Origin: a virus
Virus record (IMG/VR): IMGVR_UViG_3300035698_004380
Coordinates: 1-22,731 of that record
Reading direction: 5' to 3' (one strand)
DNA length: 22,731 nucleotides
Below the pieces are notes generated by a model, which was not told the origin of the DNA, did not search any database, and was given only the letters and a program-made list of their open reading frames with translations. Shown one piece after another: positions 688 to 17,194 of the stretch (position 1 is the first letter of the stretch; every line of letters begins with the position of its first letter). The position numbers and the translations under genes are program-made.

Positions 688-723
688 AAAAATGAGCCCG
701 TTTGATAACAGGGTGGAACTCAT
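688..723 (-). terminator. Possible tmRNA 3' hairpin with U-tract
   Basis: ATGAG (719-723) can pair with CTCAT (692-696) and is followed by a run of five U (688-692). The loop contains the P2 strand of the tmRNA coding piece, so forming this hairpin would compete with the mature fold. It may be a weak terminator or a processing boundary. The stem is only five pairs. Confidence 0.35.
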
Positions 724-741
724 ACCCCGGATAATTATATC

Positions 742-798
742 TTAAGCTGCCACTCGCGTGTCAGAGAAAGCTGTATTATCATTGTCTGCTGTTTTTGC
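742..798 (-). other. tmRNA tag-peptide reading frame
   Basis: Read from GCA at 796-798 the frame gives AKTADNDNTAFSDTRVAA and stops at UAA (742-744). From the second GCA (787-789) it gives the 15-residue ADNDNTAFSDTRVAA. The first GCA is 7 nt after PK1 and preceded by AAUAACU, similar to AAUAGUC before the E. coli resume codon, so I favour it; the second would leave 16 nt. The hydrophobic VAA end is the usual ClpXP degron, and the NDN core resembles alphaproteobacterial tags. Confidence 0.75.
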
Positions 799-872
799 AG
801 TTATTATGGCGCTTTGCCAAGCAGTAAACTCCATTTGGCTTTCACAAGTCAATCGATCCTAAGGTCGCCCCC

Positions 873-966
873 ATCAAAAGCACATCAGGTATTCCCGAGC
901 GGCTGTAATCACTTCACAGCGGGCACCTACTTTTCAGAAGTTAGCTACACTTCCTAGATGTGCTTA
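873..966 (-). other. tmRNA intervening segment, removed on maturation
   Basis: This is the stretch between the CCA end of the acceptor piece and the 5' G of the coding piece. AAGCACATC at its start (957-965 on the minus strand) pairs perfectly over 9 bp with GATGTGCTT at its end (878-886). That closes the loop and brings both maturation sites together beneath the acceptor stem. Permuted tmRNA precursors are known to be cut into two chains here. Confidence 0.75.
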
Positions 967-1036
967 TGGTGGAGGCGAGGAGACTTGCACTCCTGTCTTG
1001 CCTGTTATACGCTTCCACTTCAACGTCTACAGTATA

Positions 1037-1691: not shown

Positions 1692-2699
1692 TTAAGCTTC
1701 ACAAGCAGCACACTCTACTTGGATCTTTTTACGAATAAGACTCTGTGCTTTGCTCATGCCATAATTGTAATACAAGGTTTTCACCCCACGACGCCAAGCA
1801 TGCATATAGAGCCTGTTGATTTCTCTTACACTCATATCAGCTTCGATCATAAGATTCAAACTCTGCCCTTGATCAATGTACTCTTGGCGATCAGCAGCTT
1901 GATCTACAATGTCATACGGATCAATCTCGGCGAAAGTACGAAACACGGCTTTCTCATCATCAGTTAAGAAGGACACATGTTGAACACTACCATCGGCATT
2001 ACGAATGTTATCCCAAGTAGCAGAGTCGTCTCGGCCTTTAGCTTTGAGTATCTCCCGAAGATATGGATTCTTGATTGTTACTTTCGACTTGGCTAAATCC
2101 TTAACATAGCAGTTGCTAAACTCTGGTTCAATGCTTTGAGAGACTTGGCCTAAAATAAATGAACTAGATTTTGTCGGAGCTACTGCCATCAAAGTTGTGT
2201 TTCTTCTACCATATCCTTTAAGAAGCTCAGGTTCACCAAACATCGTTGCCAATTCTCGACTCGCTTGGTTCGCTCGATCTCGCATGGTTTTCGCAATATC
2301 AATATTCAGAGCATATGCTTCAGGATCATCGAATGAAATCATGTTACTCTGTAAATAACTGTGCCATCCAAGAACTCCCATACCAAGTGCTCGGTGTCTT
2401 TCAGCAAAGCGACGAGCTCGTTTATGGAACTCTGATCCTTCGGTTTTATTGACGAATTCAGTATTAACAGTGTCTAAGAAATAGATCATAGTCTCAATAG
2501 CGTCAGTCTTTACTAATTCGTCCCATTGAAGAAGATTAATACTGCTGAGAACACAAGTAAATGTTTCATCGATACTACTGGGTAAGAATATTTCGGAGCA
2601 ATTGTGAACTAATATATCATTAGCATAAAAATTCTCATTGTCGCGAACAGTAATATCATACACTGGCGTTTTTTTAACTTTAATTTTTGTTATTTTCAT
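1692..2699 (-). CDS. nrdA: NrdA C-terminal half fused to C-terminal split intein
   Basis: Residues 1-33 are a C-intein: block F (VYDITVRDNENFYAND) and block G (ILVHN, penultimate His, terminal Asn), followed by Cys34 as the +1 residue. Residues 34-335 are the second half of the class Ia ribonucleotide reductase large subunit. CSEI carries the catalytic thiyl-radical cysteine and partner glutamate (C439/E441 in E. coli), Cys49 matches C462, LYYNYG holds the paired radical-transfer tyrosines, and the C-terminal CAAC supplies the reducing cysteines. The ATG at 2699 is preferred because GAGG lies 9-10 nt upstream; an in-frame TTG at 2726 lies inside a palindrome. The product is inactive alone and must be trans-spliced to the other half encoded at 2812-3882. 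The intein part is AT-rich compared with the extein. Confidence 0.93.
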   Translation of the reverse strand: MKITKIKVKKTPVYDITVRDNENFYANDILVHNCSEIFLPSSIDETFTCVLSSINLLQWDELVKTDAIETMIYFLDTVNTEFVNKTEGSEFHKRARRFAERHRALGMGVLGWHSYLQSNMISFDDPEAYALNIDIAKTMRDRANQASRELATMFGEPELLKGYGRRNTTLMAVAPTKSSSFILGQVSQSIEPEFSNCYVKDLAKSKVTIKNPYLREILKAKGRDDSATWDNIRNADGSVQHVSFLTDDEKAVFRTFAEIDPYDIVDQAADRQEYIDQGQSLNLMIEADMSVREINRLYMHAWRRGVKTLYYNYGMSKAQSLIRKKIQVECAACEA

Positions 2700-2724
2700 T
2701 AATTTTTCCTCTATAGTACCTTTC

Positions 2725-2753
2725 AAATTTAATGTTGAATCAACATTAAATTT
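2725..2753. repeat. Perfect 29-bp AT-rich palindrome between nrdA halves
   Basis: The arms aaatttaatgttga (2725-2738) and tcaacattaaattt (2740-2753) are exact reverse complements around one base. The size and arm length are the same as those of the palindrome at 371-399, but the sequence is unrelated. In RNA it would form a hairpin ending about 25 nt before the C-half start codon. No U-tract follows. Confidence 0.85.
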
Positions 2754-2778
2754 TTGTAAATTCCATTATAATTCATGC

Positions 2779-2803
2779 AATTACCCTCCGAAGGAGGGTA
2801 ATT
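2779..2803 (-). repeat. Perfect 11-bp hairpin just after the nrdA N-half stop
   Basis: The minus-strand arms AATTACCCTCC and GGAGGGTAATT enclose the triloop TTC, starting 8 nt after the TAG of the N-half gene. There is no run of U after it, so it resembles an mRNA-stabilising or processing hairpin more than an intrinsic terminator. It partly separates the two nrdA halves at the RNA level. Confidence 0.8.
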
Positions 2804-2811
2804 TCAGTGCA

Positions 2812-3882
2812 CTATGGCGTCAACATTACTAATTCGTCTGATTCTTCTAATTCGTCGGCTCGAACATATCCTCGGTTTTTGGTATACAATAAATGATTTC
2901 CTGTGCATTGAATTTTATTACCATTACATTCGATAATGTATAATTCATCTACTTGGTCAGTTTCTGCACTATTAAGAATTTCCTTCCATTCATCTTTTCC
3001 TGTTTCAATATTCATTGACCAAACGTATACAGTGTTTGAATAAAATCCCATTTGAAATTTTTGATCAAATGACGCCAATGTTTCTGTGATTTCTTCATTA
3101 TTGTATTTGATTCTTATTTTAGTATCGCCTGTCAAACACATCTGGCTGGCTAATATTGGCATATTGTTGTCATGGTACACATCTGGTTTACTCTTGTTAG
3201 AGTTACCTTCAAACATGATGTATGGGAAACCAATCTCACTCCGAGTCTGGAGTACTTTGGCCCATAATTTTCTCTTGTCATCGTCGCCTGCGATCATTTG
3301 GTTTAAGAAATCGTCACTGACTGTTATACCAGTGGTTAGGCCTTGGATAGGATGACCCTCAGTCCCGATGTCTAAGAATTCTTCCGCGTCTGGGTGATCA
3401 ATAGGTAGATACGCACTAAAGAATCCTCGACGAACGCTGCCTTGGCTTACTACATCTGCTAGAGAATCAAACAGTTTCATAAAATGAACCGACCCGCTAC
3501 TCTCACCGTTATCTTTAATTGGGGTGCCACGGGGGCGCAATGCTCCGAAGTACCCGCTGGTTCCGCCCCCGCCTTTCATTAGCATACCGTTTTCGGCAAC
3601 CGTATACAAGATACTTTCCATATTGTCGCCCAGATAACTGCCAAAGCAACTGACTGGCAACCCTCGGTCTTTTCTACCATAGTTGCTCCATACAGGAGAG
3701 CTTAAGCTATAAAACCCCCGACTCATATAATCATAAAACTTGTCTGCGTAACCATCTATACCAAGGTAGTTCTCAGCGGCGTCTGCTATTTGTCTAATTC
3801 GTGCTTCTGGTGTTTGACCAGGAAGCAAATAGCCTCTAGACAAAAACTCACGCGATTCTTTATTTAACCAGTCAAATGTCAT
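2812..3882 (-). CDS. nrdA: NrdA N-terminal half fused to N-terminal split intein
   Basis: Residues 1-248 are the first half of a class Ia ribonucleotide reductase alpha subunit without an ATP-cone. They include PVSCFGSY, where Cys79 matches E. coli C225, and the conserved GGGGTSGYFG, NGESSGSVHF and GSVRRG motifs. At Cys249 an N-intein of 108 residues begins: block A CLTGDTKI, block B with T-x-x-H (CTGNHLLYT) and an RGYVRADEL segment, ending VMLTP and stop. No homing endonuclease is present. The extein halves add up to about 550 residues, matching the compact NrdA group that lacks an N-terminal cone. AAGGAAA precedes the ATG. Trans-splicing joins ...ASQM to CSEI.... Split inteins in nrdA are known from environmental phage sequences. 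Confidence 0.93.
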   Translation of the reverse strand: MTFDWLNKESREFLSRGYLLPGQTPEARIRQIADAAENYLGIDGYADKFYDYMSRGFYSLSSPVWSNYGRKDRGLPVSCFGSYLGDNMESILYTVAENGMLMKGGGGTSGYFGALRPRGTPIKDNGESSGSVHFMKLFDSLADVVSQGSVRRGFFSAYLPIDHPDAEEFLDIGTEGHPIQGLTTGITVSDDFLNQMIAGDDDKRKLWAKVLQTRSEIGFPYIMFEGNSNKSKPDVYHDNNMPILASQMCLTGDTKIRIKYNNEEITETLASFDQKFQMGFYSNTVYVWSMNIETGKDEWKEILNSAETDQVDELYIIECNGNKIQCTGNHLLYTKNRGYVRADELEESDELVMLTP

Positions 3883-7923: not shown

Positions 7924-8292
7924 TTAGAACCAAGTAAGATACCAAGAAAAAACTGTTCCGGCACTGTTTGCTCGTCGAGAAATACTGTATCCAAGGTCAG
8001 TGAAATGAGTAATCACTGCCGCCATTTCTGCTTCACGACTAGGGTCTTCAGTCAAATTCTGCCATACTTGATAATATCGTCTACCCGTACTGTTGTCGTT
8101 AGTCATGCCCGTACCAGTAACTGAAGTATTATTAACTGTTACTTGTGTTGTTGATCCGACACTAACACTGGTATTCATATCAGCCGCTGAAGCAGCAATA
8201 TACACATCGATCAATGATATCTCTTCAATGACTGTTCTATTCCAGGTTGTACTAATTCTGCGACTGTTAGCTGCTGATATGTTGCTGGGCAT
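7924..8292 (-). CDS. Putative virion structural protein (122 aa)
   Basis: The protein has a Ser/Thr-rich middle (SVSVGSTTQVTVNNTSVTGTG) and a C-terminal segment (YYQVWQNL...MAAVITHFTDLGYSI...FSWYLTWF). This resembles small conserved proteins found near tail genes in marine T4-like phages, but I cannot give a function. The ATG at 8292 has AAGGA about 9 nt upstream and lies inside the 3' end of the upstream radical SAM gene, overlapping by 26 nt, so translation is probably coupled. No membrane or signal segment is seen. Confidence 0.65.
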   Translation of the reverse strand: MPSNISAANSRRISTTWNRTVIEEISLIDVYIAASAADMNTSVSVGSTTQVTVNNTSVTGTGMTNDNSTGRRYYQVWQNLTEDPSREAEMAAVITHFTDLGYSISRRANSAGTVFSWYLTWF

Positions 8293-9508
8293 CTTGGTAT
8301 TCCTTTTTTAACTCCGGTATGACGTCGTATAGCTTATATTTATCTGGTCGGTGAATGTCTTCCAGTATCATCCTTCGGACAAATTTATCCGACATTTCAG
8401 CATTATACTGATATGAATCAAGGAAAGAGCGAGCAGTGGTTATCACATTCGCAAAATCTGCTAGATCTGCCTTAGTTTCAAATGATTCAATTACTAGATT
8501 AAATCGGTCAAGTGTTTTCTTCGCCGATTCTGGCGGTAACGCATGAATCTCCAAGTAGTCCTTACCATGCACTGGGGTAAAGATTACATCTTGAATGTTG
8601 TTTAAATATGCCCATTGTAAGAAAGCTGGTATCCCGACAGCGCTAACTGCTGTGACGACATAATTTATAGTCCACGCTATCTGTGGATGATTGGCAACAA
8701 TACGCGAAAAGTTTCTCTCGCATTGTTGCCAATCGGCACCCATGCGTTGGTATTCAAACACAGAATCGGTCCCGTCGATGCTAAAGGTCATTCGAGGTTT
8801 GCCGAATTGTTCAATTTTACGATAAACATACGGATTATACCGAGTCAGATTTGTCACGATGTATAACCCTAGATCCGCTGCTATGCCGGACGAGATGCAT
8901 TGGTCAATTACTTGTAATACTCGAGGTTGGTCTAAACTCTCACCCCCAGTTAATGCGATATAAGACGCAGTACTTAAAATCTCATGCAAGTCTTCGTAAC
9001 TGCTTGAATCAGAGACCATATCTCGCAAGTTAATCCGCGTCTCTAACTTTTCTCTAGTAGTGCTGGCCTCAGAAAAACACGTTATACATGCTAAATTACA
9101 ATACCTACTAGGGAAGTAATCAAGACCAAATAATCGATTAACGTGGAAATCATTCTGAATTATTTCTTGTAACTTATCATTTGTGTCAGAGAGGTACTCT
9201 GACACGGTTTGATTGGCCTTTAGTCTCTCACTAACATAACCTTGTTTCTCAGTCTGGTAACATTTGAAGCAACCGTCGACTTGATCTCCGCGATTCTCTG
9301 CGTGCAATCTACGAGTATCTCTCATAAGATCACTATTCAAGTCTTGGCCGATTCTACCTGAGGTAGAGAAGTGAGGATCACCTGTCCACATACAACATGG
9401 CTGAATTGAATGGCCAGCGGCACTCTCTTTGACAAACGCATTGAAGAATGGTAGTAAACATATCGTACTACCAATCTTCTGGTATACGTTGCTTAACTCA
9501 GAGTTCAT
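8267..9508 (-). CDS. Radical SAM protein with N-terminal cysteine-rich (twitch/SPASM-like) domain
   Basis: The 413-residue protein has the radical SAM cluster motif CNLACITC (Cys137, 141, 144), then ALTGGESLDQ and FSIDGTDSVFEYQR, as in the catalytic barrel that binds a [4Fe-4S] cluster and S-adenosylmethionine. Unusually, the extra cysteines come first: Cys17, Cys38-Cys39 (QPCCMW) and Cys80/Cys83 (CFKC, followed by YQTEKQGYVSERL). This resembles phage 'twitch'-type radical SAM proteins, with the auxiliary domain N-terminal to the barrel. The substrate is unknown; SPASM/twitch relatives often modify peptides. The ATG overlaps the previous stop as ATGA and has no strong Shine-Dalgarno. A 9-bp hairpin at 9183-9205 lies within the gene and is probably chance. 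Confidence 0.82.
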   Translation of the reverse strand: MNSELSNVYQKIGSTICLLPFFNAFVKESAAGHSIQPCCMWTGDPHFSTSGRIGQDLNSDLMRDTRRLHAENRGDQVDGCFKCYQTEKQGYVSERLKANQTVSEYLSDTNDKLQEIIQNDFHVNRLFGLDYFPSRYCNLACITCFSEASTTREKLETRINLRDMVSDSSSYEDLHEILSTASYIALTGGESLDQPRVLQVIDQCISSGIAADLGLYIVTNLTRYNPYVYRKIEQFGKPRMTFSIDGTDSVFEYQRMGADWQQCERNFSRIVANHPQIAWTINYVVTAVSAVGIPAFLQWAYLNNIQDVIFTPVHGKDYLEIHALPPESAKKTLDRFNLVIESFETKADLADFANVITTARSFLDSYQYNAEMSDKFVRRMILEDIHRPDKYKLYDVIPELKKEYQDAQQHISS

Positions 9509-14961: not shown

Positions 14962-16322
14962 CTTTTGAGGTCTGCTAGCATACTCTTTAATTTATCACTA
15001 TTGGGTTGGCCGGTATCTGGGCTCTCTGTTGATTTGCGTTTGATTCGGTCTAGTATCCCACTGGAAACTGAACTGCTTTGTGGTATGCCAGCATCATCTG
15101 GATAATCAGTTATTCGCAAACTAGCAACATCAAATTGCAGGTCGATCTTTTGACCGAACCCGGAGCTATTGCGTGTTTTCATCATCTGAAGTTGATACTG
15201 CCCGTTTTCACGCATACTACGACTGGTGAAAATACCAAATACATTGTCTGCTGTATTGATCTTACTAATACCACCGCTAATATGACTGTGATTAAATTCT
15301 ATCTCTTCAACAGCTCCTCTATTAAGCTGAGATGCGCTAACCATTACTACATCAAGTTCTTCGGCTAAATTTCTCAATTCTTCACTTATATATTTGTCTT
15401 TAACAAACAAGTCAGATGGTGATACTTTAACACTAACTGGCATTAGCAAATCAAGATAGTCAACACATATGTACTCTATTTTCATTCCGGACTGGATTTG
15501 AAGCTCTTTGATATATGCTCTGATATCATTTACTGTACTCTGTGCTGGTAATTTTTTAATTTGAATAGGGGCACTTTTCTTAGCTTTCATTCTCACTTTG
15601 AGATCAACATCATCAAGTGATTTAAATATTTCTTTACTTGAAATACCAACTGTCATGCTATCCATTCTCATAGCACTTAAACCCTGACTGAGTTCTAGAG
15701 TAATGTAAACGCCAGGAAGACCAAGCTCGCTCCAGTTCATGCTGAGATTCTGTAAAAATAGACTTTTGCCGGCGCCGCTCGGACCCGCAAAAATTTCTAG
15801 CTCCCCTCTATTAAATCCTCCGAAAATAGCGTTGTCCAGTGTTTTCCACCCAGTACTCATCTGTCCATTTTCACTCTTTAGTGCTAACAATCTTTCTCTA
15901 GGGTTGTCGTAGTAATTTATTCCAAGGTCGCGAGTTAACCCGATCTGAACAGCGTCTTTGATCAATCGTTCGATGGGTTCATATTCACCACGTTCGATCA
16001 TATCAGCGCTTTCCAGAATGGCACGCTTTAGTGACTCGTGTTTTATGAATCCTTCAAACTCGGTCAAGCACCATTCTTCAATATCTGAGGTAACCGTCTC
16101 TGCTGGATTCAATTGAATGTTGGTTTTAGCAAAAATTTGGGCTGGTGTTGGAATGGCATGGTATTCATCTGCGTAGTCAGCTAAGAACTGTGCTGCTGGT
16201 TTTATGCTTCGATCAAAAAGACCTGGGTCATAAATGTTTTGAACTCGCGCAAAGATACTAGGTGCTCCCATCATAATCTCCAGCATCAATCGCTGTACCT
16301 TTACATCATAATCAGTCTTCAT
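14958..16322 (-). CDS. 41: DnaB-family replicative helicase, T4 gp41-like
   Basis: The 454-residue protein has an N-terminal helical domain followed by a RecA-type ATPase. GPSGAGKS (about 180-187) is the Walker A motif, the Glu in ITLELS (about 210) is the expected catalytic glutamate, EYICVDYLDLL (Asp288) is Walker B, and SASQLNRG is the following sensor motif. The C-terminal tail is Ser/Pro-rich, as in phage helicases. It would unwind DNA 5' to 3' as a hexamer with the primase encoded two genes upstream. The start at 16322 (MKTDYD) is chosen because GGAGG lies 6 nt upstream and ATG overlaps the previous stop as ATGA; a longer frame lacks such a site. Length and motifs match gp41. Confidence 0.93.
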   Translation of the reverse strand: MKTDYDVKVQRLMLEIMMGAPSIFARVQNIYDPGLFDRSIKPAAQFLADYADEYHAIPTPAQIFAKTNIQLNPAETVTSDIEEWCLTEFEGFIKHESLKRAILESADMIERGEYEPIERLIKDAVQIGLTRDLGINYYDNPRERLLALKSENGQMSTGWKTLDNAIFGGFNRGELEIFAGPSGAGKSLFLQNLSMNWSELGLPGVYITLELSQGLSAMRMDSMTVGISSKEIFKSLDDVDLKVRMKAKKSAPIQIKKLPAQSTVNDIRAYIKELQIQSGMKIEYICVDYLDLLMPVSVKVSPSDLFVKDKYISEELRNLAEELDVVMVSASQLNRGAVEEIEFNHSHISGGISKINTADNVFGIFTSRSMRENGQYQLQMMKTRNSSGFGQKIDLQFDVASLRITDYPDDAGIPQSSSVSSGILDRIKRKSTESPDTGQPNSDKLKSMLADLKR

Positions 16323-17194
16323 CCACAACCTCCGCAATTAAATACACAAGCTTGGTGCGGTGTATCACTCTGTACTCTAGTATAAAAGTCTTTTATATCT
16401 GAATCAATTAGTATATCACTCATAGTATAGTTTTTTATATTGTATTTCCTGCCAATGCCAGTTTTATACCGCCATCGATGATCCACTAGATGACAACACG
16501 GCATATAGTATCCGTCAGCTGTTATTATATGCATCGGCCGATCTATACATTGAGGACGATACCCATCATGTATATTACCAGACGATCGACTGATAGCACC
16601 CTCAGGTTTTAACGGATCGTCTTCAATCCATCGGTTGCTATTTAACACCAGAAATTCATCAAAACCCATAGACCGAGATAAATCACTAGCTTGCTTGATC
16701 TGATCTTGATTATAAGAGAAAACGATATATTGCCAAACAGTGTGGCATTTTCCACTTAGAGCAGAAATCGCATTTTCAATGAATCGCCATTTACCATTCA
16801 CTCGATACTGGTTAAAATTATCTGGGGTTCCGTCTATTCCAAAAATTATTTCATCATCGGTATCCAGTAAAACAGATAGGTCCTGCCATAGTGATCCGCC
16901 ACGCTGACCGCTGGTATGAATTGCTACCCTTTTACCCTCGCTCTTCGCCCATTCAATCCAATCTAAAAATCCTGGATGAAAGACTGGCTCTCCCATAGTA
17001 CCTTTAAATTGAAAGACCTGTATTCTTGCTAATACCGGTTCGATGAACCGCTGAAACTCTTGGAGACTTAAGTCATCCTCTAGTCGAATCTTTGGAAATT
17101 GCTCTCGGAACGTGGTTCTAGCGCATCGAGGACAAGCTAAGTTACATCGATTGGTCAATTCTACTTCAAACGTTGATAAATCAGTTGGTGTCAT
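16319..17194 (-). CDS. Radical SAM protein with C-terminal SPASM-like cysteines
   Basis: The 291-residue protein starts with a radical SAM motif CNLACPRC (Cys17, 21, 24), followed by FKGTMGEPVFHPGF and IIFGIDGTPDNFNQYR as expected for the barrel. The C-terminal part carries Cys216, Cys233-Cys234 (MPCCHLVDH), then Cys283, Cys287 and Cys290 in the last residues. This resembles a SPASM domain that holds auxiliary Fe-S clusters. Related enzymes modify peptides, but the substrate here is unknown and no precursor peptide is obvious. The gene sits between primase and helicase with ATGA overlaps on both sides. Its final CGGCG codons double as the Shine-Dalgarno of the helicase, so its 3' end is locked into the operon. 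GAGAGG precedes its ATG. Confidence 0.85.
   Translation of the reverse strand: MTPTDLSTFEVELTNRCNLACPRCARTTFREQFPKIRLEDDLSLQEFQRFIEPVLARIQVFQFKGTMGEPVFHPGFLDWIEWAKSEGKRVAIHTSGQRGGSLWQDLSVLLDTDDEIIFGIDGTPDNFNQYRVNGKWRFIENAISALSGKCHTVWQYIVFSYNQDQIKQASDLSRSMGFDEFLVLNSNRWIEDDPLKPEGAISRSSGNIHDGYRPQCIDRPMHIITADGYYMPCCHLVDHRWRYKTGIGRKYNIKNYTMSDILIDSDIKDFYTRVQSDTPHQACVFNCGGCG

Follow-up and report, generated by a model that had tools for sequence, protein, structure and literature searches.

The window analysed here is a whole virus record, a metagenomic fragment of 22,731 bases. Its genes include those for ribonucleotide reductase subunits, a glutaredoxin, a tail-spike-like protein, a T4-like exonuclease and a DnaB-like helicase, the last being closest to the helicases of the large phages PA5oct, Phosso, Atu_ph07 and SCTP-2. 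Covariance models and direct reading place a gene for a two-piece (circularly permuted) tmRNA on the minus strand, running from 1030 to around 691. Its start lies 37 bases beyond the stop of g1067 (1067-1393), a gene on the same strand. The function of a tmRNA is to release stalled ribosomes and to tag incomplete proteins.

The Rfam model tmRNA_permuted (RF04321) matches 1030-742 on the minus strand over its full length (model positions 1-213 of 213), with a score of 68.1 bits against a gathering cut-off of 47 and an E-value of 1.9e-11 for the whole window. The clade model alpha_tmRNA (RF01849) also gives a full-length match, at 1069-691 (E-value 6.5e-11 for the 451 bases searched), which carries the end of the gene to 691. 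It is the best-matching clade model, yet its 42.6 bits fall under the curators' gathering score of 50, and the gene is therefore called alphaproteobacterial-type as a description, with no claim to membership of RF01849. The original prediction had placed a phage-encoded permuted tmRNA at 695-1030, and the significant match to the permuted-form model bears this out; of the two groups that it offered as models for permuted ssrA, the alphaproteobacterial type fits the present gene and the cyanobacterial type does not. ARAGORN, run on the window, did not call the tmRNA gene. The pattern CTCCACCA-N80..110-GGGGNCGA, which describes acceptor strand, spacer and acceptor strand, occurs once in the window and in none of 100 shuffled versions. 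The folding energy of the locus (z -1.6), weak evidence alone, was given no weight. The elements of the RNA are as follows.

967-1030, minus strand: acceptor piece (tRNA-like 3' half) with P2/P3 strands, T arm, acceptor 3' strand and CCA; from RF04321 positions 1-65 and direct reading, mature 5' end estimated near 1030-1035
998-1006, minus strand: P2 strand of the acceptor piece, pairing with 844-852
971-977, minus strand: acceptor 3' strand CGCCUCC, with U70 of G3-U70; pairs with 866-872
873-966, minus strand: intervening transcribed spacer of 94 bases, after CCA and before the 5' G of the coding piece; processing is expected to excise it
957-965, minus strand: 5' arm of the spacer-closing stem, AAGCACAUC, pairing with 878-886
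878-886, minus strand: 3' arm of the spacer-closing stem, GAUGUGCUU, pairing with 957-965 in the predicted fold
691-872, minus strand: coding piece with acceptor 5' strand, D-loop-like GGAUCGA, P2 strand, PK1 region, tag frame and 3' domain; from RF04321 to 742 and from RF01849 to 691
844-852, minus strand: P2 strand of the coding piece, pairing with 998-1006
807-819, minus strand: PK1 region with stem UGGC/GCCA (819-816 with 810-807), by direct reading
742-789, minus strand: tag frame ADNDNTAFSDTRVAA-UAA with proposed resume codon GCA at 789-787, where RF04321 aligns the tag region
691-730, minus strand: 3' terminal domain, UGAG (722-719) with CUCA (696-693), from RF01849 and the relative Phosso

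Read directly on the minus strand, the acceptor stem joins the two pieces through GGGGGCG (872-866) and CGCCUCC (977-971), which form seven of seven pairs including G3-U70, and A73 is followed by an encoded CCA at 969-967. The T arm reads AGGAG-UGCAAGU-CUCCU with all five stem pairs. A second connection between the pieces is P2 (852-844 with 1006-998; eight pairs and one bulged A), next to which lies a further helix formed by GUAGAC (1030-1025) and GUUUAC (829-824). The spacer is closed by nine pairs between AAGCACAUC (965-957) and GAUGUGCUU (886-878). As such, the seven-pair acceptor stem with G3-U70, the encoded CCA, the eight-pair P2, the nine-pair stem closing the intervening loop and the tag frame ending in VAA-UAA (789-742) were all found as originally predicted. 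The proposal of an H-type PK1 holds in part: the first stem, UGGC/GCCA, is present and recurs with changed pairs in relatives (for example, L163), but no convincing second stem was identified in the window sequence; the fold tool used predicts no pseudoknots. In most viral relatives the tags likewise end in AA, and the 3' domain shows a compensatory change, UGAG/CUCA in the window versus UGGG/CCCA in Phosso (L288). At 697-712 (minus strand), the 3' hairpin of the coding piece and the T run after it are scored as an intrinsic terminator, which may mark the end of the transcript.

Related viral loci were gathered by a T-arm (T-loop) pattern and through protein relatives, kept where the architecture was permuted and reduced to 47 non-redundant copies. 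For each helix, pairing of a strand with its own partner was compared with pairing after partners had been swapped between sequences; the resulting z is descriptive and kinship does not enter the statistic. Across the 47 copies, P2 formed 6.15 pairs with its own partner versus 3.34 with swapped ones (z 13.1), the T stem 5.0 versus 4.0 (z 13.0) and the acceptor stem 7.0 versus 6.6 (z 9.9), while the spacer-closing stem formed 8.1 versus 4.8 (z 14.4, n = 32). Because the selection rule admitted only copies whose acceptor stem was fully paired and whose T stem was nearly so, it is the P2 and spacer-stem results that are independent. The acceptor and P2 helices, expected from the outset to covary in related phages, both do so. 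Furthermore, the present analysis adds the spacer-closing stem as a conserved feature of many phage copies.

The surroundings of the gene are those of a phage. The order exonuclease, tail protein, nrdB, nrdA, glutaredoxin and g1067 recurs in related viral contigs. A permuted tmRNA also lies downstream of the glutaredoxin and g1067-like genes, on their strand and at a distance of 1.4 to 3.1 kb, in contigs L009, L150 and L207. Permuted tmRNAs above the cut-off were found in 6/50 contigs related by NrdB and in 5/67 related by the protein of 1067; many contigs in both sets are short fragments, where absence says little, and in the remaining relatives the tmRNA lies at a different position or none was found. 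No riboswitch was found in the window. SmpB was found neither in the window nor in 11 related phage records, three of which are complete genomes, so that host SmpB would be needed.

Two observations on neighbouring genes were also made. The large subunit of ribonucleotide reductase (1692-3882, minus strand) is split into two genes 85 bases apart, which end and begin with complementary intein halves (matches to PF14890 positions 20-94 and 123-155, neither reaching the Pfam cut-off), and the interruption is probably a split intein, judging from these matches. The same gene is uninterrupted in the co-linear contig L009, and a gap of 93 bases lies near the same place in L036 and L037. In addition, the window encodes two radical SAM proteins (8267-9508 and 16319-17194, minus strand), one with a weak SPASM-domain match.

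Several lines of evidence bear on where the gene came from. Permuted tmRNAs above the cut-off were found in 105 of 115 alphaproteobacterial genomes, nearly all scoring about 98 to 166 bits, and the window copy lies below all but one of these 105 best scores. A DNA search of 240 alphaproteobacterial genomes returned short matches only, of 19 to 31 bases (best 31 bases, E-value 0.006), so that no host can be named. A pattern scan of bacterial genomes, which returned mostly unrelated loci of other phyla, likewise indicated no host. Against phage records, blastn matched Caulobacter phages over 42 bases of the T-arm region only, and megablast with the neighbouring genes as queries gave no match. 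A tree built from the tRNA-like parts places the window copy with the phage copies L115 and L207, apart from 30 host copies; the alignment is about 140 bases long and the local supports are modest (0.7 to 0.86, and 0.83 to 0.85 for the window grouping). Score, DNA search and tree agree, and together they make this look like a long-resident phage gene of alphaproteobacterial type instead of a fresh host capture. An alphaproteobacterial-type tmRNA can also sit in a phage of another class (PMC9004378).

These results also weigh on the reading in which a host ssrA was recently acquired by imprecise excision, or survives as an attachment-site remnant, without a selected role. In its favour, ssrA often serves as an integration target, and fragments of it can be carried by prophages (PMC9004378). 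However, the gene is complete and no mere 3' fragment, its nearest relatives are phage copies in contigs of similar gene order while the 240 alphaproteobacterial genomes hold no close copy, and profile searches of 15 proteins from this 22.7-kb phage fragment found no integrase, which leaves recent capture very improbable. That host chromosomal DNA was misbinned as viral might be asked of any 22.7-kb metagenomic fragment without a known host, but phage replication and tail-related genes stand on the same contig and their order is shared with the related viral contigs; we consider the chance of this negligible.

The low model score relative to host genes could possibly reflect a relaxed or altered function. 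One form of this would be a decaying or decoy tmRNA, which folds and binds SmpB and tags inefficiently, as a relic or as a damper of host trans-translation. Such an activity has a parallel in mycobacteriophage DS6A, whose TLD-only tmRNA is reported to inhibit host tmRNA (PMC4131195; PMC11915505). In the window copy, however, all seven acceptor pairs, G3-U70, CCA, all five T-stem pairs, P2 and the full VAA-stop tag frame are intact and the 3' domain is also retained, and a decoy would not be expected to retain an open tag; this reading is thus unlikely. It is similarly doubtful that divergence has fitted the phage tmRNA to a purpose of the phage's own, such as a tag that gives its products a fate different from that of host-tagged ones, or competition with host tmRNA for SmpB in infection.

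The preferred reading, to which we give a probability of roughly 0.85, is that 691-1030 (minus strand) holds a complete alphaproteobacterial-type permuted ssrA resident in a large tailed phage, whose precursor would be processed and charged by the host and which would tag proteins with ADNDNTAFSDTRVAA in infection. Transcription, as we infer it, would give a precursor probably shared with the upstream nrd-glutaredoxin gene cluster, in which the acceptor stem and the spacer stem would join into a single long helix. Removal of the spacer would be expected to fall to host RNase P, RNase E or tRNase Z and to trimming enzymes, after which the acceptor and P2 helices would hold the acceptor piece and the coding piece together. 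Charging by host alanyl-tRNA synthetase via G3-U70 and delivery to stalled ribosomes by host SmpB would then allow the tag to be appended, and its AA end should direct the product to host ClpXP-type proteases. On the sequence evidence, trans-translation (retagging or rescue) during infection is the most likely role.

Phage-borne two-piece tmRNAs are common in viral contigs and can escape both ARAGORN and record annotation. That many phages have complete tags and covarying stems suggests that ribosome rescue merits genome space in large phages, and the assembled set of phage copies could be useful material for testing the role of the phage tag.

Whether such phage copies had been described before was a question raised with the original prediction, and they had. 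Two-piece forms made up 53 of 133 tmRNA structures in a survey of 18,146 phage genomes (Buchholz et al., 2022; PMC9004378), the paper on the tmRNA database gives 79 tmRNA sequences from phages (PMC11915505), and the Sinorhizobium jumbo phage AP-J-162 is reported to have a tmRNA (PMC11242549). The phage two-piece tmRNA is therefore already known as a kind, of which the present gene is a further case. Further permuted tmRNAs were found here in phiCbK, RBC63, the jumbo phage Phosso and dozens of IMG/VR contigs. Those of the three named phages carry no annotation in the deposited records examined; in phiCbK, the permuted tmRNA has a GOLLD RNA (L003, 479-965, minus strand, 165.3 bits), also without annotation, some 500 bases away.

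With the alphaproteobacterial permuted tmRNA (RF01849/RF04321), the window copy shares the order acceptor piece, spacer, coding piece, the G3-U70 acceptor stem, the encoded CCA, GGAUCGA, P2, an AA-ending tag and the 3' terminal domain. The differences from the host genes, apart from the higher scores of nearly all those sampled, lie in the T loop, which is UGCAAGU in the window versus GGCGGUA or GGCAGUA in 28 of the 30 top-scoring host genes, and in the spacer, which has 94 bases and a 9-bp closing stem versus 5 to 53 bases in those 30 genes. Among phages, Melnitz and other marine phages (PMC9004378) likewise carry an alphaproteobacterial-type permuted ssrA with no phage integrase found, but a glutamine riboswitch is predicted in the ssrA region of Melnitz (PMC9004378), unlike in the window. 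RF04321 gives 71.4 bits for Caulobacter phage phiCbK, 90.1 for Caulobacter phage RBC63 and 113.3 for Sinorhizobium jumbo phage Phosso (PV764938). Phosso shares with the window phage relatives of the helicase and primase as well as the 3' domain with its compensatory changes, whereas its tmRNA (L288, 1501-2103, minus strand) has a spacer of 410 bases, several times longer than that of most copies and to be compared with the 94 bases of the window gene.
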